In this document: positions 1-27,146 of the stretch, in pieces
Position numbering within the stretch: position 1 is the first letter of the stretch
Layout of the letters: the number at the start of each line of letters is the position of its first letter
From: Stomoxys calcitrans
Lineage: Eukaryota; Arthropoda; Insecta; Diptera; Muscidae
NCBI RefSeq assembly: GCF_963082655.1
Contig: NC_081553.1
Span: 31,979,114 to 32,043,113 of the forward strand
DNA length: 64,000 nt
Direction of reading: 5' to 3'
Notes under the pieces: model-generated
The model's input: only the letters and a program-made list of their open reading frames with translations
Told to the model about the DNA's origin: nothing
The model's database searches: none
Translations under genes and position numbers: made by a program

Positions 1-964
1 TGTTGTAGAGTTTCATCGATTCTTTTGTTCTTCTGCTTATGTTACGGCACTCACTCTCTTCATTTTCTAATCTTGATTTGAACCATTCCAGGGTAAATAG
101 ATAAGAGCTTTTAATCTCTGCCTCTTTTTAATAGCATTCTAAGACAGAGATATCATGGACTCTCTCTTTCATAAGCCTCTCTTTTGTCTCTTATTCCTTT
201 TTACACACCTTATGATGAGCTTGGAAGAGTATCTTGATTGATTCTTAAGACACGCCCCCTCCTTCAATGGTAAATGGAACTTCTCAATTTCTGATATTTC
301 AAATGATTTCTTTTATCTAAAGCAAATATCAAATGATTATCTTTGTGAGACAAGGCTTTTATATTTATATCGTACAAAGAATACAAAAAGTATTCAAAGT
401 ACACCAGTGAGCTAGTTTTTGTTTATTTTGCAAATTTTGTTTAAATGCCGATTTGTTTGTTTTAATTTATCGGTTTCCACAGACGGTGGGTGGCAACGCA
501 TATCATCAGTTTGACATTTTTTTCCCTTCTTTGTGCTTCTATTTGACAAAGGCATGGAACACGTTTCCTTCCAAGTTAGGGATCAATTTGTCTTTCTTTT
601 CCTGTGATCTCTCGATGTGATAAGAAGTATTCTTACACAGAATCTACGACTTAAAACGAAAAATAAAGGAAACTTTAACTTCGGTGAATTTTTTTTTCAT
701 AAAAATCATAACTTTTTGCGTCACTTGACTAAGTTTTGCTGAAGGTAAATTTTTTTGTGAATTCTTTGAAAGTTTCCCAATCAAACATAGTGCATTATTT
801 TTTTTTATTGGTCTGTAGTGCGCAAATTAGGCCTTCATACACGTATCAGTGTTAAAGCTAGCATAATTGAGGCACAGGAGGAAGTCATTCATATATGTGG
901 AATTTTTGAAGGAAAAGGCTTGGCACACCTGGATTCAAACCAAGAGATCTATAACCAACGGGGA

Positions 965-987
965 GCTACTACCCACAGGGTAGTAGC
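965..987. repeat. Perfect 10-bp inverted repeat (3-nt loop) in the LTR
   Basis: GCTACTACCC and GGGTAGTAGC are exact reverse complements separated by ACA, and the structure recurs in the 3' LTR at 9876-9898. It is GC-rich in an AT-rich LTR, so it would form a stable RNA or DNA hairpin. Its role is unknown; regulation, 3'-end processing or protein binding are all possible. Confidence 0.6.
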
Positions 988-1657
988 CACCAATTTATTA
1001 ATCCGAGTCCCAAGACGTGCTTAAGTGCTTGGCCATAACCTTTTTTGTCATTCACGTGTCTACACCAAGAGACTGGCTGAAGTGATTTTTGCCATGTTAT
1101 TAGTAATATTTTAAAGCCAGCAAACCAATATTACCAGCCTCTATTTGAACCTTACACCGGCTATACCAACCTGATGTGACATTTTTCAACCGGCCATGTA
1201 AAGTTTTATCCAGCTATACCTAGTTTCAAGTGATATTTTTTCGAGGAACCATACATATTGAATACGTGCTGAATTTCAAGATTTTTGAAGCCACATCTTC
1301 ACGCCATTTTGTTTAATTATTTTTTCATCATGCTAAAGCATCAGGCTGCCTATATCATCACAATTCATCAACTTAACTAGAATCGAATAAGTATCGTAAT
1401 TATAAAATTCCTAAATGGAATTTCATCAAAATTGATTTTTTTATTTTTTCGTAATTTAATCAGTTATAAATTTTACAGATAGCCTCATATACATCTAAGA
1501 AATTTGTTCAGATGTATGCCCAATAGTTCGTTTTATCTTAAATTTGGTAAATCCACCAGCAACACCCTTTTCATAATTTTCAATATCCAAACAGAAAAGC
1601 AACCACGAAACCATCGACCATGTGAGGAAGGCCTTCATCGCTGGCGTCATTTTTTTG

Positions 1658-1667
1658 TTGGTAAGTC
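1658..1667 (+). promoter_or_regulatory. Candidate splice donor in the LTR
   Basis: The sequence TTGGTAAGTC fits the donor consensus, with the cut after 1660. A matching acceptor (pyrimidine-rich, ending TTCAG at 3371) lies 8 nt before the gag ATG at 3380. Joining them would remove the LTR remainder, the primer site and the leader ORFs and present gag as the first ORF. This rests on consensus match only; no transcript evidence is available. Confidence 0.3.
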
Positions 1668-2733
1668 ACAATGTAAAAATTTTATATAAATATATGCAAA
1701 GTGTGTTGTAACTCCATTGGTTAGTTTCCCTCCATTTTTATTTTCTATTGCCTTGCTCTTTGTGGAGCAAACTTTAGAATAACTCGGTGGAGACTTTCTC
1801 TCCAGCCGCTCTCGTTTTTTTTTTTTTCTTTGGGAGATCACATGAATGCACATAGTGTTTTTATAGTTTCTCACCAGTGATTTCTCCAAGAAGTGTTTTT
1901 ATATTTTTTTTCATTTTTTCATTTTTGCAACTAATTTCGTCTGTTGGGCAGACATACCTACATACATAATTTTTTATTCATTTCTATTTTCACCTGTTTC
2001 GTAAATTTAAGATACTTTTTGAATATTTTTAACCCCTTCTGGGAAGCTTTAAATTTACAACATTTTCTAATGTTATAATTTTCTATCAGATTTTTACATT
2101 ATTATTAGGTAAATTTTTCTAGTTATTATTATTATTTTTTTTAAATGGTTATTAATAAAAATATGTGAATTTTGAATTTCATAAACAATGATACTTTTCT
2201 CTTGTGGCGATGAACATTTTTATAAGGCATTGTCTCAATCAGTGAAGATGTGCTAGATCCGTTGGAAAAGTTTTCCTATAAGAAGATGAGATCATAAGAG
2301 GGTAGTACCTTTGTTTGTTAGGGGTCCAATGGACATAAGCTTGAATTGGACATAATTGGTTGGAGAGGGTTATGAAGCAATGGCCCCATTTACATCCGGG
2401 ATGCCATATTAAATTTGACCTTATGGGAAGTATTCGACCTGTTTTTTTTTCTTTATTTTTCTTTTAAAGTTCTTTTTAAATTTTGTTTGATATATGGCCA
2501 ACCATCGGTTTTATTCGTTCGTTTTATTTCATTAAAAAAAGGGAGTCTGTAACAAAAATTAATTGTGTAATGGGAACGAGGCTTAGAGGGAAAGGGACAC
2601 GAACCCCCCACCCGACTGAAGTTAGCAATAGAAGGCTCCCGCAGTCCCAAGACTTTCTAAGTTCTAAGATGCCTTTGAATAGGATCTGAACCTGCATCTC
2701 ATACAGATTTTCATCTGGATACATTACAGATTT

Positions 2734-2751
2734 TGGCGCCCAACGTGGGGC
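2734..2751 (+). other. Primer binding site, tRNA-Lys1,2 type
   Basis: TGGCGCCCAACGTGGGGC is an 18-nt site of the tRNA-Lys1,2 class used by several retroelements. It begins 4 nt after the LTR end. Minus-strand DNA synthesis would start here. The full 18-nt match and its position fix the right border of the 5' LTR independently of the LTR alignment. Confidence 0.93.
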
Positions 2752-3379: not shown

Positions 3380-5011
3380 ATGTCCTTGGAGAGAACCCCT
3401 CCACCGGCATTACCGCCGACTGCCTCGGCACCGGTTAATTCGGAACCTACGTTATGTTGGGTGTGTAACGAGATTATGACTGATGGTCAGGAATGTATGC
3501 TTATTAATGGATGTTCACATTCATTTCATAAGGTATGCTTACAGGAGTTTTTAACTACAGCATCGGAATGCCCCATGTGCAAACGATCGTGTCAGCCTAA
3601 TGATTTAAAGGCTTTTGTGTCTGGACAGGGACTAGTTGCTCCGAAGAAACAACCGGCAAACAGGGGCAAAGCTAGGGGTGCGATGCAGAAGCAATATAAT
3701 ACGAGGAGTGCAAGGAATTTATTCCAGGACCAAGTGAGTTTTTTTAACACTAGTTCAGGTTCTCTGGGAGGTAATTTGGCCACACCAAATCGCGATCCTG
3801 GTGGTATTAATTCTCGAGGTTTTCACTCCCCATCTCAAGGTGTTGCAAATCCTTCCGCTGGAAACCGTTTTGACTTTAATGAGATGAATAGGTTGATTGA
3901 GGCTAACTTGACTCGGATGCTACAAAATTTGAATATTTTGCCCAATCCCAATCAGGACAATCCGCGGGGCGTTCTTCGAAATAGTTTCCAAGATTCGAGG
4001 TCCAGAATAGACACAAGGATGCCAAATGACAATGCTCATGCACCTAGTGCAGCCCAAGGTGGAAATGAAGTCCCTTCACAGTCTGTACATTTGAATAGCA
4101 ATTCGCATATTTTGAATGTGTCTCCGCATTCACTCTCGAACTCTAATAATGGCAATATTCCTTCCGATAGGGTTACATCGATAATTCAGAGTTGGAATTT
4201 AAAATTCGACGGGTCATCCACCGGTCTCAACGTCGAAGAATTTTTATACCGGATTTGTTCACTGACTAGGGATAATTTTAATAGTGATTTCTCTTGTATA
4301 TGCAGGAACCTTAATATTTTGTTAACCGGAAAGGCTAGAGAATGGTACTGGCGTTACCATAAGAGGGTTGCATCTCTTAACTGGGATGATTTTAGCCAGG
4401 CCATTCGTGAGCAATATAGGGATTCCAAGACGTCGTACGATTTTAGAGAGGAAATCAGGAATCGGAAACAAAGGGCCAATGAATCATTTGATACTTTTTA
4501 TGAGTCTATTGCTGGTATTATGGATAGATTGTCGACGCCAATGGCAGAGCAGGAACTGATTGAGATAATACTTAGAAATTTACGTCCTGATGTGCGTCAG
4601 GACTTGCTTTATATGAAAATAGATTCAATTCCACATCTTCGTCAACTGGTGCAAACCAGAGAAAATTTCCTCAGCGATGAGTATGTTAGGAGGAACTTGT
4701 CCATGCACAATGTAGGAATGACTAATGTCCCTCGTAGATTCGTATCCGAGATTGATGACGATCGTGATTGTGTCATGGAAGGGGATGAGGATACCTTGAA
4801 AGTAGAGGCGGTTCACGGGTCGACGACCAATATGAAATGCTGGAATTGTGAGGAACTCGGACATCACTGGCAGGAATGCTTGAGTGATAGACGAATTTTT
4901 TGTTATGGCTGTGGGGCCAAGGACATTTATAAGCCCAACTGCATTGATTGCAGAAACCGTAGGAACAACCCGGCAAAAAACTCGAGACCTCAGGGTCCAC
5001 CGATCGAATGA
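3380..5011 (+). CDS. gag: Gag polyprotein with N-terminal RING-H2 finger
   Basis: 543 aa. It would assemble the particle and bind the element's RNA. Residues 26-67 form a clean RING-H2 pattern: C26-X2-C29-X15-C45-X-H47-X2-H50-X2-C53-X10-C64-X2-C67, the zinc-binding layout of many E3 ubiquitin ligases. Residues about 80-260 are Ser/Asn/Pro-rich and low in complexity. Residues about 272-430 resemble the retrotransposon capsid (Retrotrans_gag) fold, with a WYWRY-type core and Arg-rich helices. Near the C-terminus is a CCHC knuckle (C487, C490, H495, C500), then a second with the same spacing but Ile516 where His is expected (C508, C511, I516, C521). The ATG has a G at -3. The stop overlaps the pol ATG as ATGA, and a -1 shift site lies 30 nt before it. 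Ubiquitin ligase activity is inferred, not shown. Confidence 0.9.
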   Translation: MSLERTPPPALPPTASAPVNSEPTLCWVCNEIMTDGQECMLINGCSHSFHKVCLQEFLTTASECPMCKRSCQPNDLKAFVSGQGLVAPKKQPANRGKARGAMQKQYNTRSARNLFQDQVSFFNTSSGSLGGNLATPNRDPGGINSRGFHSPSQGVANPSAGNRFDFNEMNRLIEANLTRMLQNLNILPNPNQDNPRGVLRNSFQDSRSRIDTRMPNDNAHAPSAAQGGNEVPSQSVHLNSNSHILNVSPHSLSNSNNGNIPSDRVTSIIQSWNLKFDGSSTGLNVEEFLYRICSLTRDNFNSDFSCICRNLNILLTGKAREWYWRYHKRVASLNWDDFSQAIREQYRDSKTSYDFREEIRNRKQRANESFDTFYESIAGIMDRLSTPMAEQELIEIILRNLRPDVRQDLLYMKIDSIPHLRQLVQTRENFLSDEYVRRNLSMHNVGMTNVPRRFVSEIDDDRDCVMEGDEDTLKVEAVHGSTTNMKCWNCEELGHHWQECLSDRRIFCYGCGAKDIYKPNCIDCRNRRNNPAKNSRPQGPPIE

Positions 5012-5027
5012 TTGATAATGTGGACCC
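4975..5027 (+). promoter_or_regulatory. -1 ribosomal frameshift signal: A AAA AAC plus stem
   Basis: In the gag frame the codons read GCA AAA AAC, placing the heptamer A AAA AAC (4975-4981) in the X XXY YYZ register required for -1 slippage. The pol frame is open only from 4963 (TAG at 4960-4962) and gag stops at 5011, so the shift must occur within 48 nt, exactly where the heptamer lies. GGGTCCAC (4993-5000) pairs perfectly with GTGGACCC (5020-5027), an 8-bp stem starting 11 nt after the heptamer. The fusion would be about 1691 aa. The loop contains the ATGA where gag stops and pol could restart, so stop-restart is the alternative. Confidence 0.85.
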
Positions 5028-8000
5028 CCACAAACCCCCTGATGTACCATTTGAACCCGGATTTTCTAATACCACACCTATTTCTACTTCTATTAAAGGA
5101 GATGTCGGGATATGCCCTCCAATAGACATTTTGAGAAGACCAGAGACCCTTGTTAGTTTTGCTAATGATATGCCATCTCATGTCTTATATCCGAGACGGC
5201 CTTATCACGAACGTTTAGCTTATTATCTGCAGAGACGCAATGAGATTTTTTCGTTGAGTAGTTTAAATTCTATTTCCAGTAGGCGGCCCAGACGTTCTAC
5301 CATTCGATTAAGGCAGTACTTTAGATCCAAAAGGTTATGTAGGAAATTCTTGGTTTCGGCGATATTTTCTAAGCCCACGGATATGCGATATTTTGCGAAA
5401 ATCTCCTTTTTGGAATTCAATGAAATCGGTCTTCTAGATACTGGGGCGAGTGTAAGCTGCCTTGGCGCTGAACTGGCGTTACACAATTTTTCGAAGTATC
5501 AAAATTTTTCTAAGTGTAGGTCGAATGTGAGCACTGCTGATGGAAGTATTCAAAGAGTCGTTGGCTGGATAGATGTTCTCGTTTCTTTTAAAGGAGATAC
5601 TAGGCCTTTGAGATTTTTTATAATCCCTTCTTTGTCACAAAGGGTGATACTAGGTATTGACTTCTGGAAGAAGTTTGGTTTGATACCAGATATACTAGGA
5701 TCTGTTGTCTTAATGGCTGATGGAGTTATCTCTACGAGTGTTCAGGCTTTGAATCCTGAGGGTGTAGTACTGCAGGAGGATTTTGACACTGATTCTTTTC
5801 CATTGACAGGACCACAGCGCAAGCAACTTCAAGCGGTTATAAATCTTTTTCCGAATTTTGAAACCCAGGGGCTGGGTAGGACCAGGTTGATTCGGCATAG
5901 TATTGACGTTGGGGATGCTTCTCCCGTAAAACAACGATACTACCCTGTGTCCCCGGCGGTTGAGAGATTAATGTTCGGAGAAATTGACCGGATGCTCAGT
6001 TTGGGTGTCATAGAACCGTCCACTTCGGCGTGGAGTTCGCCGATGCGATTAGTGGTGAAGCCGGGAAAAGTAAGGTTGTGCTTGGATGCTAGAAGGCTGA
6101 ACGCCGTTACTATAAAGGATGCTTATCCTTTACCCAATATTGAGGGAATCTTCGCACGACTGCCAAAGGCGAATATCATTTCCAAACTCGATTTGAAGGA
6201 TGCCTTTTGGCAGATTAGCCTAGACGAAAAGTCGAGACCACTGACAGCATTTACAGTCCCGGGACGGCCTTTGTACCAATTTGTGGTAATGCCGTTCGGG
6301 CTCTGTAATGCTCCACAGACTATGTGTAGGCTAATGGACGAGATCATTCCTCCCGATTTGCGCCATTGCGTATTTGGGTATTTGGATGATCTCGTCATCG
6401 TGTCGGAAGATTTCCCCTCTCATATGGAGGTATTGGTGCGGATTTCTGCACAATTCCGAAGGGCCAACCTTTCTTTAAACGTTTCCAAAAGTAAGTTTTG
6501 CGTCACCAGAGTAAATTACTTGGGTTACGTAATTGGAAACGGAGGCATAACCACTGATCCGGAAAAGGTCGCGGCAATAACCAACTGGCCAGTGCCCAAG
6601 ACTTTGAAACAGGTCCGAGGATTTTTAGGACTAACCGGCTGGTATCGTCGGTTCGTGCCGAATTTTTCTGATGCTACGTTCCATATAACCGAGGTTTTGA
6701 AATCCAGGAAGAAGTTTCAGTGGACACCAGAGGCACAATTGGCTTTCGAGGATCTCAAGGGGTTGCTTACATCCGCTCCGGTACTTTCTAACCCTGACTT
6801 CACTAAGAAGTTCTACTTGCACTGTGATGCAAGCGATCACGGCATAGGTGCCGTTCTCGTACAGTTAGATAAGGATGGGCAGGAAAAACCCATTGCATTT
6901 ATGAGTAAAAAGCTTACCACGGCTCAGCGCAACTATAGCGTAACCGAACGCGAATGCCTTGCAGCCGTGGAAGCGATAAAGAAATTCAGGTGCTACCTAG
7001 AACTACAGGAGTTCGAAGTGGTCACTGACCACTCCAGTCTATTATGGCTGATGAGGCAGCCGGATTTAAGTGGAAGGTTGGCACGCTGGGTTTTTAAACT
7101 TCAGTCCTATCGTTTTTCTATTAGTCACAGGAAGGGAAGCGAACATGTCGTACCTGATGCACTTTCGCGGATTCCTCACGAGGAGGTTGCAGGTATTGAC
7201 ACCATCCTACCGGAAGTTGACCTTGAATCTCCTTTCTTTTTGGATGAGGACTACGTTTCTCTGAGGGCCAGGGTATTTGAAAGTCAGTCGAGTCTACCGG
7301 ATTTGCGAATTGTGGACAAGTACGTGTACTATCGTACAGAACCCTATTCTGGTGAGGAGCGACAGGAGCAGGATGCCTGGAAACTTTGGATCCCTTTAAG
7401 GCTCCGAGAGGACACGATATCGAGGGCTCACGATTCACCGGTGACGGCACACGGCGGGATCGCTAAGACTGTGGATTTGCTAAGACGGCATTTCTTCTGG
7501 CCAGGTATGGTCAAGGACGTTCGAAGGTACGTGGGCAATTGCGAGGTGTGCAAGACTACCAAGGCCCCGAATACCATAATGAAGCCTCCTATGGTTAATC
7601 AATCTGTCTCCGAACGGCCCTTTCAACGCCTCTATATTGATCTGTTAGGACCATATCCGAGGAGTAAGTCAGGATATATAGGTTTGCTGATTGTTTTAGA
7701 CCACTTTAGTAAATTTCACTGGGTGTGTCCTCTGCGCAAATTTACATCTTCGGCCATTAAGGATTTCCTGCAGAGTCAGATATTTCATATCTATGGTGTC
7801 CCGGAAACAGTTATCAGCGATAATGGTAGCCAGTTCAAGGCAAATGATTTGAACGCCTTTTTGACGAGCTTCGGTATCAACCATATTTACACCGCCTTTT
7901 ATTCACCGCAGGCGAATGCGTCAGAGCGGGTTAACCGATCGCTTATAGCCGGAATCCGCGCATTTCTTAAGAAGGATCATCGTGAGTGGGATCAAAATCT

Positions 8001-8454
8001 CAGTGCTATCTGCTGTGCGCTAAGAAATTCGATCCACCAGTCCATTCGAGTGTCCCCATATCATGCGTTATTTGGGTTCGACATGGTAACCCATGCTTCG
8101 AACTATGTCCTTCTCAGGAATTTAAAACTCCTGAATGAATCTACCAATTGTCTTAGTCGAGATGATCGACTCCAACTTATAAGAGATGATGTTAAGAAGC
8201 ATATAAAGTCTGCCTTTGAGAAGAATCAACGTGAGTACAACCTGCGAACAAGACCCAGGTCTTTTGAGGTAGATCAACAGGTATTTCGGCGTAATTTTGC
8301 GCAAAGCAGTTTAGAGAAGAAGTTTAGTACGAAGCTAGCACCCACTTTTATAAAGTCGAAAGTCCGAGAAAAACTTGGCAATCATTATTATGTGCTAGAA
8401 GACATGGATGGTAAAGTGGCAGGAACCTTCCATTGTAAGGACATTAGGACATAG
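5008..8454 (+). CDS. pol: Pol polyprotein: protease, RT, RNase H, integrase
   Basis: 1148 aa from the ATG at 5008; as a -1 fusion it would start at 4981, adding 9 codons. It copies the element's RNA into DNA and inserts it. Protease: DTGAS at residues 144-148. RT: motif A D395 in LDLKDAF, and the YLDD box at 458-461. RNase H: D607 in CDAS, the TERE box near 646-649, and the PDALSR end. Integrase: zinc site H808, H815, C845, C848; catalytic D878, D938 and E973 (E lies 35 residues after the second D); then a degenerate GPY/F-like tail. No chromodomain and no env follow. All visible catalytic residues are intact. Integrase resembles the K02A2.6-like Gypsy proteins. Confidence 0.96.
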   Translation: MIDNVDPHKPPDVPFEPGFSNTTPISTSIKGDVGICPPIDILRRPETLVSFANDMPSHVLYPRRPYHERLAYYLQRRNEIFSLSSLNSISSRRPRRSTIRLRQYFRSKRLCRKFLVSAIFSKPTDMRYFAKISFLEFNEIGLLDTGASVSCLGAELALHNFSKYQNFSKCRSNVSTADGSIQRVVGWIDVLVSFKGDTRPLRFFIIPSLSQRVILGIDFWKKFGLIPDILGSVVLMADGVISTSVQALNPEGVVLQEDFDTDSFPLTGPQRKQLQAVINLFPNFETQGLGRTRLIRHSIDVGDASPVKQRYYPVSPAVERLMFGEIDRMLSLGVIEPSTSAWSSPMRLVVKPGKVRLCLDARRLNAVTIKDAYPLPNIEGIFARLPKANIISKLDLKDAFWQISLDEKSRPLTAFTVPGRPLYQFVVMPFGLCNAPQTMCRLMDEIIPPDLRHCVFGYLDDLVIVSEDFPSHMEVLVRISAQFRRANLSLNVSKSKFCVTRVNYLGYVIGNGGITTDPEKVAAITNWPVPKTLKQVRGFLGLTGWYRRFVPNFSDATFHITEVLKSRKKFQWTPEAQLAFEDLKGLLTSAPVLSNPDFTKKFYLHCDASDHGIGAVLVQLDKDGQEKPIAFMSKKLTTAQRNYSVTERECLAAVEAIKKFRCYLELQEFEVVTDHSSLLWLMRQPDLSGRLARWVFKLQSYRFSISHRKGSEHVVPDALSRIPHEEVAGIDTILPEVDLESPFFLDEDYVSLRARVFESQSSLPDLRIVDKYVYYRTEPYSGEERQEQDAWKLWIPLRLREDTISRAHDSPVTAHGGIAKTVDLLRRHFFWPGMVKDVRRYVGNCEVCKTTKAPNTIMKPPMVNQSVSERPFQRLYIDLLGPYPRSKSGYIGLLIVLDHFSKFHWVCPLRKFTSSAIKDFLQSQIFHIYGVPETVISDNGSQFKANDLNAFLTSFGINHIYTAFYSPQANASERVNRSLIAGIRAFLKKDHREWDQNLSAICCALRNSIHQSIRVSPYHALFGFDMVTHASNYVLLRNLKLLNESTNCLSRDDRLQLIRDDVKKHIKSAFEKNQREYNLRTRPRSFEVDQQVFRRNFAQSSLEKKFSTKLAPTFIKSKVREKLGNHYYVLEDMDGKVAGTFHCKDIRT

Positions 8455-8911: not shown

Positions 8912-11640
8912 TGTTGTAGAGTTTCATCGATTCTTTTGTTCTTCTGCTTATGTTACGGCACTCACTCTCTTCATTTTCTAATCTTGATTTGAACCATTCC
9001 AGGGTAAATAGATAAGAGCTTTTAATCTCTGCCTCTTTTTAATAGCATTCTAAGACAGAGATATCATGGACTCTCTCTTTCATAAGCCTCTCTTTTGTCT
9101 CTTATTCCTTTTTACACACCTTATGATGAGCTTGGAAGAGTATCTTGATTGATTCTTAAGACACGCCCCCTCCTTCAATGGTAAATGGAACTTCTCAATT
9201 TCTGATATTTCAAATGATTTCTTTTATCTAAAGCAAATATCAAATGATTATCTTTGTGAGACAAGGCTTTTATATTTATATCGTACAAAGAATACAAAAA
9301 GTATTCAAAGTACACCAGTGAGCTAGTTTTTGTTTATTTTGCAAATTTTGTTTAAATGCCGATTTGTTTGTTTTAATTTATCGGTTTCCACAGACGGTGG
9401 GTGGCAACGCATATCATCAGTTTGACATTTTTTTCCCTTCTTTGTGCTTCTATTTGACAAAGGCATGGAACACGTTTCCTTCCAAGTTAGGGATCAATTT
9501 GTCTTTCTTTTCCTGTGATCTCTCGATGTGATAAGAAGTATTCTTACACAGAATCTACGACTTAAAACGAAAAATAAAGGAAACTTTAACTTCGGTGAAT
9601 TTTTTTTTCATAAAAATCATAACTTTTTGCGTCACTTGACTAAGTTTTGCTGAAGGTAAATTTTTTTGTGAATTCTTTGAAAGTTTCCCAATCAAACATA
9701 GTGCATTATTTTTTTTTATTGGTCTGTAGTGCGCAAATTAGGCCTTCATACACGTATCAGTGTTAAAGCTAGCATAATTGAGGCACAGGAGGAAGTCATT
9801 CATATATGTGGAATTTTTGAAGGAAAAGGCTTGGCACACCTGGATTCAAACCAAGAGATCTATAACCAACGGGGAGCTACTACCCACAGGGTAGTAGCCA
9901 CCAATTTATTAATCCGAGTCCCAAGACGTGCTTAAGTGCTTGGCCATAACCTTTTTTGTCATTCACGTGTCTACACCAAGAGACTGGCTGAAGTGATTTT
10001 TGCCATGTTATTAGTAATATTTTAAAGCCAGCAAACCAATATTACCAGCCTCTATTTGAACCTTACACCGGCTATACCAACCTGATGTGACATTTTTCAA
10101 CCGGCCATGTAAAGTTTTATCCAGCTATACCTAGTTTCAAGTGATATTTTTTCGAGGAACCATACATATTGAATACGTGCTGAATTTCAAGATTTTTGAA
10201 GCCACATCTTCACGCCATTTTGTTTAATTATTTTTTCATCATGCTAAAGCATCAGGCTGCCTATATCATCACAATTCATCAACTTAACTAGAATCGAATA
10301 AGTATCGTAATTATAAAATTCCTAAATGGAATTTCATCAAAATTGATTTTTTTATTTTTTCGTAATTTAATCAGTTATAAATTTTACAGATAGCCTCATA
10401 TACATCTAAGAAATTTGTTCAGATGTATGCCCAATAGTTCGTTTTATCTTAAATTTGGTAAATCCACCAGCAACACCCTTTTCATAATTTTCAATATCCA
10501 AACAGAAAAGCAACCACGAAACCATCGACCATGTGAGGAAGGCCTTCATCGCTGGCGTCATTTTTTTGTTGGTAAGTCACAATGTAAAAATTTTATATAA
10601 ATATATGCAAAGTGTGTTGTAACTCCATTGGTTAGTTTCCCTCCATTTTTATTTTCTATTGCCTTGCTCTTTGTGGAGCAAACTTTAGAATAACTCGGTG
10701 GAGACTTTCTCTCCAGCCGCTCTCGTTTTTTTTTTTTTCTTTGGGAGATCACATGAATGCACATAGTGTTTTTATAGTTTCTCACCAGTGATTTCTCCAA
10801 GAAGTGTTTTTATATTTTTTTTCATTTTTTCATTTTTGCAACTAATTTCGTCTGTTGGGCAGACATACCTACATACATAATTTTTTATTCATTTCTATTT
10901 TCACCTGTTTCGTAAATTTAAGATGCTTTTTGAATATTTTTAACCCCTTCTGGGAAGCTTTAAATTTACAACATTTTCTAATGTTATAATTTTCTATCAG
11001 ATTTTTACATTATTATTAGGTAAATTTTTCTAGTTATTATTATTATTTTTTTTAAATGGTTATTAATAAAAATATGTGAATTTTGAATTTCATAAACAAT
11101 GATACTTTTCTCTTGTGGCGATGAACATTTTTATAAGGCATTGTCTCAATCAGTGAAGATGTGCTAGATCCGTTGGAAAAGTTTTCCTATAAGAAGATGA
11201 GATCATAAGAGGGTAGTACCTTTGTTTGTTAGGGGTCCAATGGACATAAGCTTGAATTGGACATAATTGGTTGGAGAGGGTTATGAAGCAATGGCCCCAT
11301 TTACATCCGGGATGCCATATTAAATTTGACCTTATGGGAAGTATTCGACCTGTTTTTTTTTCTTTATTTTTCTTTTAAAGTTCTTTTTAAATTTTGTTTG
11401 ATATATGGCCAACCATCGGTTTTATTCGTTCGTTTTATTTCATTAAAAAAAGGGAGTCTGTAACAAAAATTAATTGTGTAATGGGAACGAGGCTTAGAGG
11501 GAAAGGGACACGAACCCCCCACCCGACTGAAGTTAGCAATAGAAGGCTCCCGCAGTCCCAAGACTTTCTAAGTTCTAAGATGCCTTTGAATAGGATCTGA
11601 ACCTGCATCTCATACAGATTTTCATCTGGATACATTACAG
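8912..11640 (+). repeat. 3' LTR
   Basis: Repeat of 1-2729 with no indel and one noticed substitution (10925). Immediately after it, TAGTCCGATATA continues the right end of a subfamily B repeat. It would supply the polyadenylation signal for the element's RNA. Confidence 0.95.
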
Positions 11641-23780: not shown

Positions 23781-23795
23781 CATTTCAAATTCTTA

Positions 23796-25050
23796 TTTTT
23801 TCCAAAAATCCTAATATTTTCAAAATTCTTAATTTTTTCAAAATTCTTAATTTTTTCAAAATTCTAATTTTTTCAAAATTCTTAATTTTTTCAAAATTCT
23901 TAATTTTTTCAAAATTCTTAATTTTTTCAAAATTCTTAATTTTTTCAAAATTCTTAATTTTTTCAAATATCTTAATTTTTTCAAATATCTTAATTTTTTC
24001 AAAATTCTTAATTATTTCAATATTTTTAATTTTTTCAAATTTCTTAATTTTTTCAAAATTCTTAATTTTTTTTAAATTCTTAATTTTTTTTAAATTCTTA
24101 ATTTTTTTTAAAATTCTTAATTTTTTTTAAAATTCTTAATTAATTCAAAATTCTTAATTTTTTCTAATTTCCTAATTTTTTCAAGGTTTTTAATTTTTTT
24201 TTAATTCTCAATTTGTTCAAAATTCTTAATTTTATTAAAATTCTTAATTTTATTAAAATTCTTAATTTTATTAAAAATCTTAATTTTATTAAAATTCTTA
24301 ATTTTTTCAAAATTCTTAATTTTTTCAATATTCTTAATTTTTTCAATATTCTTAATTTTTTCAATATTCTTAATTTTTTCAATATTCGTAATTTTTTCAA
24401 AATACTTAATTTTTTTCAAAATACTTAATTTTTTTCAAAATTCTTAGTTTTTTCAAAATTCCTAATTTTTTCAAAATTCCTAATTTTTTCAAAATTCTTA
24501 ATTTTTTCAAAATTTTTAATTTTTTCAAAATACTTAATTTTTTCAAAATTCTTATTATTTTCAAAATTCTTAATATATTCAAAATTCTTAATTTTTTTCA
24601 AAATTCTTAATTTTTTCAAAATGCTTAATTTTTTCAAAATTCTTAATTTTTTTTTAAATTCTTAATTTTTTCAAAATTCTTAATTTTTTCAAAATTCTTA
24701 ATTTTTCAAAATTCCTAATTTTTTCAAAATTCTTAATTTTTTCAAATATCTTAATTTTTTCAAATATCTTAATTTTTTCAAATATCTTAATTTTTTCAAA
24801 ATTCTTAATTTTTTCAAAATTCTTAATTTTTTTCAAAATTCTTAATTTTTTCAAAATTCTTAATTTTTTTCAAAATTCTTAATTTTTTCAAAATTCGTAA
24901 TTTTTTCAATATTCTTAATTTTTCGAGATTCTTAATTTTTTCGAATTTCTTAATTTTTCAAAATTCTTAATTTTTTTAAAATTTTTAATATTTTCAAAAT
25001 TCTTAAGTTTTTCAAAATTCTAAATTTTTTTCAAAATTCTTAATATAAAA
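23796..25050. repeat. 18-bp AT-rich minisatellite, about 70 units
   Basis: The unit is TTCTTAATTTTTTCAAAA with small variants (TCAATATTC, TCAAATATC, TTATTAAAA). Variants occur in local runs, as expected if blocks were duplicated. Since 18 is six codons, all frames stay open and give false KKLRIL-type hexapeptide ORFs. It lies next to the 3' side of a minus-strand non-LTR retrotransposon. Confidence 0.92.
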
Positions 25051-25459: not shown

Positions 25460-27146
25460 AATGCCCTTCTATGCGCAAGCACGGATGTAACTACGCCGGA
25501 GCTTATGACACCACCCTTCGGAACATGCTGTTCCTTCAACAAATCTCAGGAGACCTGCCAGAGGTACGTTCCCAAGTTCACCCAGATCACAGAAGAAACG
25601 CCTCCACAGAAAGGAGAGCCTACATCCTTGCAAACCCACACATGAACACAGCTCAATAGTCTCCCCTTCATCCTCATCGAAGCAACTCCTACAGAAGTCA
25701 TTGTGTGGTATTCCGATGTGCGCCGCCATGTGGCCTATGGCACAGTGTTCGATTATGACCCCTGCCAAGATACTCATTGACCTCTTATCGTACGCCAGCA
25801 ACTCTCTCGTCTTCCTTCGGTCGATGACCGGCCATAGCGCCTTTGCAGTCAGGCAACCATCCAACGAGTTCCACCTGACGCCACTGACGCCGCCTTGGTC
25901 ATCCCATCAGTAGCTCGACAAATGACACGTAGACAAGACCGATGACTGGCCCGCCCGGCGCAGACGAACCTGGCGCACTGATCCGCCCTCTCACTCCCTG
26001 GATTCCCCTCACGCCCTGGAACCCATGTCAGCGTCACATCATGGGCCCGGAGCCTATCGAGGAACTCCAAACAATCCGCCACACATCTTGACCTCACCAT
26101 CCTTGACCCTTAGACCTTTAGCGCCGCCATACTGTCCACAAAAATTCTAAGTTTCAAAGGGAGGTAATACCCTTAACAGTATTTCTCTTGTGGCCACTGC
26201 AATGGCGCAGACCTCTGCCTGAAAGACTCGACACTCGTCCGGCAGTCTCAGAGACATTCTGATATAAAGTGCATCAGAGTAGACACCCCAATCCAGTCCC
26301 TGACTCCATCTTGAAGCCATCTGTGCACATCGAAGTCTTTCTGAGTTTCGAGGGCGGTAAATCCCTTACCAGAATTTCTCTTGTGGCCACTGCAATGGCG
26401 CAGACCTCTGCCTGAAAGACTCGACACTCGTCCGGCAGTCTCAGAGACATTCTGATATTGAGTGCATCAGAGTAGACACCCCAATCCAGTCCCTGACTCC
26501 ATCTTGAAGCCATCTGTGCACATCGAGGTCTCATCCTCCTTAAGTACACCATCCGCCCTTCATTCATCCCTCTCAGGAAATCGAATCGCCAATGTCCTCA
26601 CTCCAGTCGGCACTGGTGCCAGGTAGTCGCAGATCCTCCTCAGTCTACCCTACCTCCATAATACCCAGAATAGAACTGCGGCCGCAAGCATCCTCCTTCA
26701 GCATGCCGAACTCCCTCAGCCCAAGCGCAACCCTTTCGCCACAGTTCCGAATATAGGCCCCAAACGGGGTGCATATCCATCACCTCCAGGCCTACCTGCG
26801 GTGCAGCTCTCAGTGCCCCAACGCAGGTCAGTCACTGGACCTTCACGAACTCCCTCGCACGCGTCTTCTCTACGCCACCATACCAGTGCTCCATAGGTCA
26901 ATACTGGTCTCACGATGGCAGTCCAATAAATCATTTTGGAAGTTATCCCCATTTCCTACCGAACATCCTCCTGCAGGAGTAAAAAGCGCACAGTGCCTTA
27001 CGACTTCTTTCCTCGCCGTTTCCCTTCCAGGACTGTTTTGAATAGGGAACTATGGCTAGGTACTTCGCCACCTTCGACAGCCGCAAGGTGAGCCAGTCCA
27101 AGGACGGCGTGCTAAGTTTAGCCGGGCCCTCCGCTATGGATGGCAT
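25460..27146 (-). pseudogene. Decayed non-LTR retrotransposon ORF2 (RT end, RNase H, Cys tail)
   Basis: Read from 27146 down. The RT end is near 26900 (AIVRPVLTYGALVWW). RNase H follows in pieces: a CTDGFKMESGTGLG block (about 26530), a FQAEVCAIAVATREIL block, then LTWVPGREGNPGSERAD near 26030. A C-terminal CRSC...CSC segment lies near 25700. RT-RNase H order with a Cys-rich end fits the RNase H-bearing I/LOA/R1-type elements. Frameshifts and stops break it into at least four ORFs, and a 193-bp tandem duplication repeats the start of RNase H. The endonuclease and most of RT are missing. GC content is far above its surroundings. It cannot be active. Confidence 0.85.
26137..26540 (-). repeat. 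193-bp tandem duplication inside the LINE
   Basis: ATTTCTCTTGTGGCCACTGC occurs at 26181 and at 26374, and the following 160 bp match closely (for example 'aaagtgcatcag' versus 'tgagtgcatcag'). It duplicates the N-terminal part of RNase H. Confidence 0.85.

Follow-up and report, generated by a model that had tools for sequence, protein, structure and literature searches.

An N-terminal RING-H2 domain inherited with the capsid in a fly Ty3/Gypsy Gag family, a candidate ubiquitin ligase

The Gag protein of a recently inserted LTR retrotransposon carries at its N-terminus what is, with near certainty, a genuine RING-H2 domain, and sequence comparison of related Gags indicates that this RING is a co-inherited part of a fly Gag family. 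The zinc ligands are held almost without exception while the residues between them change quickly, and most of the features expected on the E2-facing side are kept. We lean, on these grounds, towards a ubiquitin E3 ligase and weigh that reading below against a structural and an offensive role.

Results

A young Ty3/Gypsy element without env

The gag gene belongs to a young LTR retrotransposon of the Ty3/Gypsy group whose relatives include the Osvaldo-lineage element Isis-like. Within the window (the whole 64-kb stretch of DNA analysed), the element has the following parts.

1–2729, plus strand: 5′ LTR, by blastn against the 3′ LTR; probably truncated where the window begins
2734–2751, plus strand: primer-binding site, read from the sequence
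3380–5011, plus strand: gag ORF, 543 aa (Pfam Retrotrans_gag, 1.8e-11; Ty3_capsid, 5.9e-08)
5008–8454, plus strand: pol ORF, 1,148 aa (PR, RT, RNase H, IN), overlapping gag by 4 nt
8912–11640, plus strand: 3′ LTR, by blastn against the 5′ LTR

The two LTRs (1–2729 and 8912–11640) differ at just one of 2,729 aligned bases in the blastn comparison, with no gap, and the insertion is therefore recent; the window edge probably truncates the 5′ copy. The primer-binding site at 2734–2751 may match tRNA-Lys. In Pol, RT, RNase H and IN exceed their Pfam cutoffs and the protease matches fall below theirs. No env ORF lies between pol and the 3′ LTR, since the longest stop-free run in the six frames of this 457-base gap is 61 aa; the element is thus one without env, and the env gene after pol that marks an Errantivirus or insect endogenous retrovirus is absent. 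The gag stop and the pol start share ATGA, and in the region 4963–5011 the pol frame is open from 4963 only, which leaves little space for a classic frameshift and suggests that pol may be translated by reinitiation.

Beyond the element, much of the window is taken up by many dispersed arrays of ~153-bp tandem units (13493–62790), mostly in 2 to 9 copies. An AT-rich 18-bp satellite of ~70 copies lies at 23783–25044, and a 131-aa frame on the minus strand at 25469–25864 may resemble the RNase H terminus of non-LTR retrotransposons.

A complete RING-H2 finger at the Gag N-terminus

The Gag is divided as follows.

3449–3589, plus strand: RING-H2 finger, residues 24–70, with ligands C26, C29, C45, H47, H50, C53, C64 and C67 at 3455–3580
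3590–3625, plus strand: conserved extension after the RING, residues 71–82 (C71, L76)
3662–3733, plus strand: conserved basic motif, residues 95–118
3734–4165, plus strand: long linker, mostly disordered in the predicted model, residues 119–262
4166–4729, plus strand: capsid domain by predicted fold, residues 263–450
4832–4957, plus strand: nucleocapsid, with a CCHC knuckle followed by a motif of four Cys and no His

The ligands follow exactly the pattern C26-X2-C29-X15-C45-X-H47-X2-H50-X2-C53-X10-C64-X2-C67 (residues 26–67, 3455–3580), in C3H2C3 order and at spacings allowed for a RING-H2 finger (PF13639). The Pfam zf-RING_2 profile PF13639 matches with an E value of 3e-07 and 31.0 bits, against a cutoff of 27.3. 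A generic RING-H2 pattern finds the Gag RING as its sole stop-free match in six frames of the 64-kb window and occurs in 0 of 20,000 shuffles of the Gag. The predicted fold is confident, has the cross-brace arrangement of a RING and overlays RING1B and RNF4 in VIA-align. The preliminary description had read a complete RING-H2 finger here, fused to a Ty3/Gypsy Gag whose ORF is intact in a young copy, and profile score, predicted fold and LTR similarity (1/2,729 mismatch) agree with it on both counts.

The solved chains nearest to the window sequence are Arkadia (7.2e-07) and EL5 (7.7e-07), and the family profile ranks RNF4 (5.1e-11, with the scores of the two RINGs in that chain summed) and RNF165 (1.7e-10) at the top of the PDB. 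VIA-align overlays of the predicted RING also include RNF4-UbcH5a-Ub, RNF125-UbcH5b and CHIP-UbcH5b; RING1B, RNF4 and others lie within 1 Z unit, so we claim no single closest fold. With regard to a host-gene source, the matches are spread across many RING ligases. Matches in BFVD comprise Gags and, separately, unrelated viral RING proteins, mostly with poor superposition.

The RING is retained across related Gags

Three homologue searches (best 120 of 150, 120 of 152 and 120 of 162) gave 164 proteins, and these homologues among the matches listed were aligned without selection together with the window Gag. All eight ligands are present in 144 of the resulting 165 Gags among the matches listed, and one ligand is lost in two (C7 in P0032, C1 in P0138), so that 144/146 Gags with residues at all eight positions keep every ligand. 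The other 19/165 among these matches are without part or all of the RING and have frames that are short at the N-terminus. By eye, seven of them keep at most the RING end or an altered start (P0014, P0052, P0064, P0074, P0079, P0084 and P0085) and the frames of the other 12 open within the linker or shortly before the capsid domain. In 9/19 the alignment program forces the first residues into N-terminal columns, so the alignment does not fix their starts. The incomplete Gags could represent truncated copies, cut contigs or proteins that genuinely have no RING, and P0084 looks frameshifted from its sequence.

A search blind to the RING, with the capsid–nucleocapsid part of one Ceratitis capitata Gag as query, recovers all eight ligands in 100 of the best 120 of 152 matches. 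Most matches are nameless; the named hosts are all flies (Stomoxys calcitrans, Musca autumnalis, Haematobia irritans, Lucilia cuprina, in which P0131 and P0146 are annotated, Calliphora vicina and Ceratitis capitata). A Gag search of viral contigs returned no match. In a further alignment (A1), the 87 Gags were picked for having a RING, and its ligand invariance is therefore by construction.

The preliminary description also held that the RING is probably under selection, arguing from an intact ORF in a young copy. Such intactness alone says little, and it is the lineage-wide constraint on the ligands (144/146, among the matches listed) that carries the point. That description named absence of the RING from other copies, random ligand loss, or a fusion confined to this copy, as grounds for doubt; for the most part none of these is seen, since the same 144/146 Gags among these matches keep all ligands, with a reservation for the 19/165 that are incomplete. 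The functions that it suggested, in Gag assembly, in release or in directing ubiquitin at host factors, are conjectural.

Outside the RING, other parts of the Gag are conserved as well. The RING-like part of the model spans residues 22–82 and so takes in residues 71–82, where C71 and L76 each occur in 133/144 intact Gags among the matches listed. The basic motif is kept to a similar degree among these matches (R99 in 137/144, G100 in 138/144, T108 in 134/144 and R109 in 139/144) and, from its sequence, could act as a nuclear, membrane or RNA signal. The linker has pLDDT mostly below 50 except around a helix at residues 166–183. The capsid domain is modelled as Arc/Ty3-type, with a Foldseek match to dArc1 (8.9e-06) and VIA-align superpositions on the Arc, PEG10, Ty3 and MLV capsids. 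In the nucleocapsid, the CCHC knuckle (C487, C490, H495, C500) and the further cysteines C508, C511, C521 and C524 either do not vary or are kept in ≥90% of the 87 Gags of alignment A1. The second motif (C-X2-C-X9-C-X2-C, 4901–4951, residues 508–524) has three cysteines that are the same throughout and a fourth kept in ≥90% of those Gags; with four Cys and no His, it is not a CCHC knuckle.

Ligands are fixed while the rest of the RING changes fast

Co-inheritance, nearest neighbours and close pairs were analysed with the 132 of 153 Gags that have all ligands, 12 later-added Gags being left out. Over the 132 Gags, identity at non-ligand RING positions rises with capsid identity (Mantel r 0.58), and 0 of 999 permutations gave a value as high, the highest being 0.16. 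Among the 63 Gags with a neighbour at ≥80% capsid identity, the nearest neighbour by capsid is also the nearest by RING in 40, with a median rank of 1. From this correlation and the shared neighbours it follows that RING and capsid mostly travel together, and domain swapping as a general cause of fast RING change is not supported. The remaining 23/63 Gags are not at rank 1, and a few RINGs, for instance those of P0037 (rank 28) and P0066 (rank 16), could have been exchanged.

Amino-acid differences were counted in 27 disjoint close pairs with a mean capsid identity of 87%. Non-ligand RING sites differ at 347/1,053 positions (33%), compared with 648/4,950 (13%) in the capsid, 199/1,096 (18%) in the nucleocapsid and 1,392/2,846 (49%) in the linker, which puts non-ligand RING sites at about 2.5 times the capsid figure. 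F49, E55 and P65 are unchanged in 27/27 pairs, as are the ligands, the latter by selection of rows. Counts of amino-acid differences cannot tell positive selection from relaxed constraint, and the fast change of the RING may reflect either an arms race or loose constraint.

E2-facing features are mostly kept

The window Gag has all three E2-side features, V28, P65 and K68. We take the I/V/L position between C1 and C2 and the Pro between C7 and C8 to be E2-side residues of RING ligases. Among the matches listed, the former is I, V or L in 131/144 Gags, the latter is Pro in 139/144, and the linchpin after C8 is Lys or Arg in 113/144 (Lys in 96, Arg in 17); all three features are found in 98/144 of these matches and at least one is absent in 46/144. 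The linchpin is Gln in 14/144 and His in 11/144 Gags among the matches listed, which, as a matter of sequence, would speak against ligase activity in those copies. The site that in RINGs, as we assume, usually holds an E2-contacting Trp is variable among these matches (H in 34, Y in 25, S in 21, W in 20, F in 15, A in 11 and T in 5 of 144) and is changed in 12/27 close pairs; RNF4 has Ser there in the profile alignment.

Published work on RNF38 bears on the linchpin. The R454K mutant binds E2~Ub 12-fold more weakly than wild type, R454K and R454M rank next after Arg in activity, and a linchpin Gln leaves minimal activity and a His weakens binding 22-fold (PMC12326332). The same source gives Arg as the commonest linchpin among human RINGs (PMC12326332).

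Discussion

We consider it somewhat probable, on the residues just described, that the Gag RING acts as a ubiquitin E3 ligase. As such it would bind a UbcH5-class E2~Ub. In cryo-EM of the Ty3 capsid, the N-terminal part of the capsid protein runs outward (PMC6525542), and RINGs carried on the long linker would for this reason be displayed outside the assembled particle, many per particle. With Lys as the usual linchpin, the monomer is predicted to be weak, and activity would then depend on crowding by assembly. There is a precedent for such a dependence in TRIM5, whose ligase can be activated in vitro by capsid binding and whose RING is proposed to be activated by clustering (PMC4936896). The Gag RING would act on Gag itself and on host proteins near the particle; we favour Gag or a neighbouring Gag as the first target, with an effect on turnover or uncoating. 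More tentatively, the particle might be its own assembly-switched ligase, in which an outward, weak Lys-linchpin RING on every subunit would be active only in the lattice and its fast-changing surface would track host partners.

Against a ligase stand the variable Trp site, the Gln and His linchpins, the 46/144 Gags among the matches listed that miss one or more E2-side features, and the related element Isis, which manages with no RING. The same features can be read in other ways. A RING without ligase activity could be a structural or interaction module, one that makes Gag dimerise or that contacts RNA or a host partner, in the position of a retroviral matrix. The N-terminal position of the RING in Gag suits such a module, and so do the variable Trp site, the 31/144 Gags among the matches listed that are without a Lys/Arg linchpin and the fast change of non-ligand residues; inactive RINGs do exist, those of class VI TRIM proteins being reported to show no ligase activity (PMC6487577). 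A purely structural role sits less well with the retention of Pro65 in 139/144 and of I/V/L at position 28 in 131/144 Gags among these matches, with the constancy of Pro65, F49 and E55 in 27/27 close pairs and with the fact that the top-ranked solved relatives are ligases, and we regard it as rather unlikely.

The pace of change could also be the mark of an offensive domain engaged in an arms race, in which the RING would tag host restriction or silencing factors for degradation, much as HIV Vif brings about the degradation of host factors via a cullin ligase. The contrast in the 27 close pairs between non-ligand RING sites (33%) and the capsid (13%) or nucleocapsid (18%), together with ligands fixed in 144/146 Gags among the matches listed, is in keeping with such a conflict. 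Fast amino-acid change may, however, reflect relaxed constraint on the surface, and the linker changes faster still (49%); we find this role improbable. There is next to no chance that the RING is an accident or a one-off host-gene fusion in this copy, given its presence across the family, in the RING-blind search too, and its earlier publication.

That publication also corrects the preliminary description, which did not know the RING as a standard Gag part. RING fingers were reported in 2013 for the Gags of both Osvaldo and Isis-like, so the fusion was already known, and a supplementary legend of that paper shows one in a Pao element as well (PMC3630058). Isis-like of Calliphora vicina, from the Osvaldo lineage of Gypsy, is described as having, like the window element, a RING in Gag, two ORFs, no env, long LTRs and a recent insertion; its gag encodes 531 aa, its pol 1,137 aa, and its LTRs measure 2,577 and 2,574 bp (PMC3630058). 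The window sequence is far apart from it, with LTRs of at least 2,729 bp, a gag of 543 aa and a pol of 1,148 aa. P0087, which is 531 aa long and carries the name 'E3 ubiquitin-protein ligase' in C. vicina, matches 98% of the window Gag at 40% identity (E 1e-119) and, from its species and length, is probably the Isis-like Gag. Through P0087, and with its identity so inferred, the window Gag is homologous to that of a published Osvaldo-lineage member. Long LTRs are given for this lineage, with 997–2,055 bp in Culex, and its mosquito elements use a tRNA-Lys primer (PMC3286476); the window LTRs, at ≥2,729 bp, are long as well. Compared by description, Osvaldo of Drosophila buzzatii shares the RING in Gag, whereas Isis of the same species is described without a RING and with an env (PMC3630058). 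A survey of 20 Drosophila species distinguishes Osvaldo, Ulysses, Isis, Osiris and Isis-like clades with mainly vertical inheritance, and the words RING and zinc finger are absent from its main text (PMC5408442). RING is among the domains in a figure legend of a 2026 Drosophila virilis paper (PMC12910113). Among the matches listed in the open-access literature, we found no functional test of RING-bearing Gags. What the present comparison of sequences appears to add is that the RING is co-inherited with the capsid, that its non-ligand residues change fast, and that its E2-facing features are mostly kept, usually with a Lys linchpin.

With RNF4 and the RNF165/Arkadia-type ligases, the Gag RING has in common the fold, the E2-side hydrophobic residue, the Pro and a cationic linchpin. 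These ligases differ in being cellular and not fused to a capsid protein, and the Gag RING has a Lys linchpin where Arg is commonest in human RINGs (PMC12326332). The likeness to TRIM5 is one of working only, namely an array of RINGs on a retroviral capsid lattice that is activated by clustering (PMC4936896); TRIM5 serves the host as a restriction factor and attaches to the capsid from outside, whereas the window RING belongs to Gag itself. If the Gag RING is a ligase, the particle of a mobile element brings along its own ubiquitin signalling, and if that ligase is switched by assembly, a retroelement carries in cis what the host protein TRIM5 uses against retroviruses.
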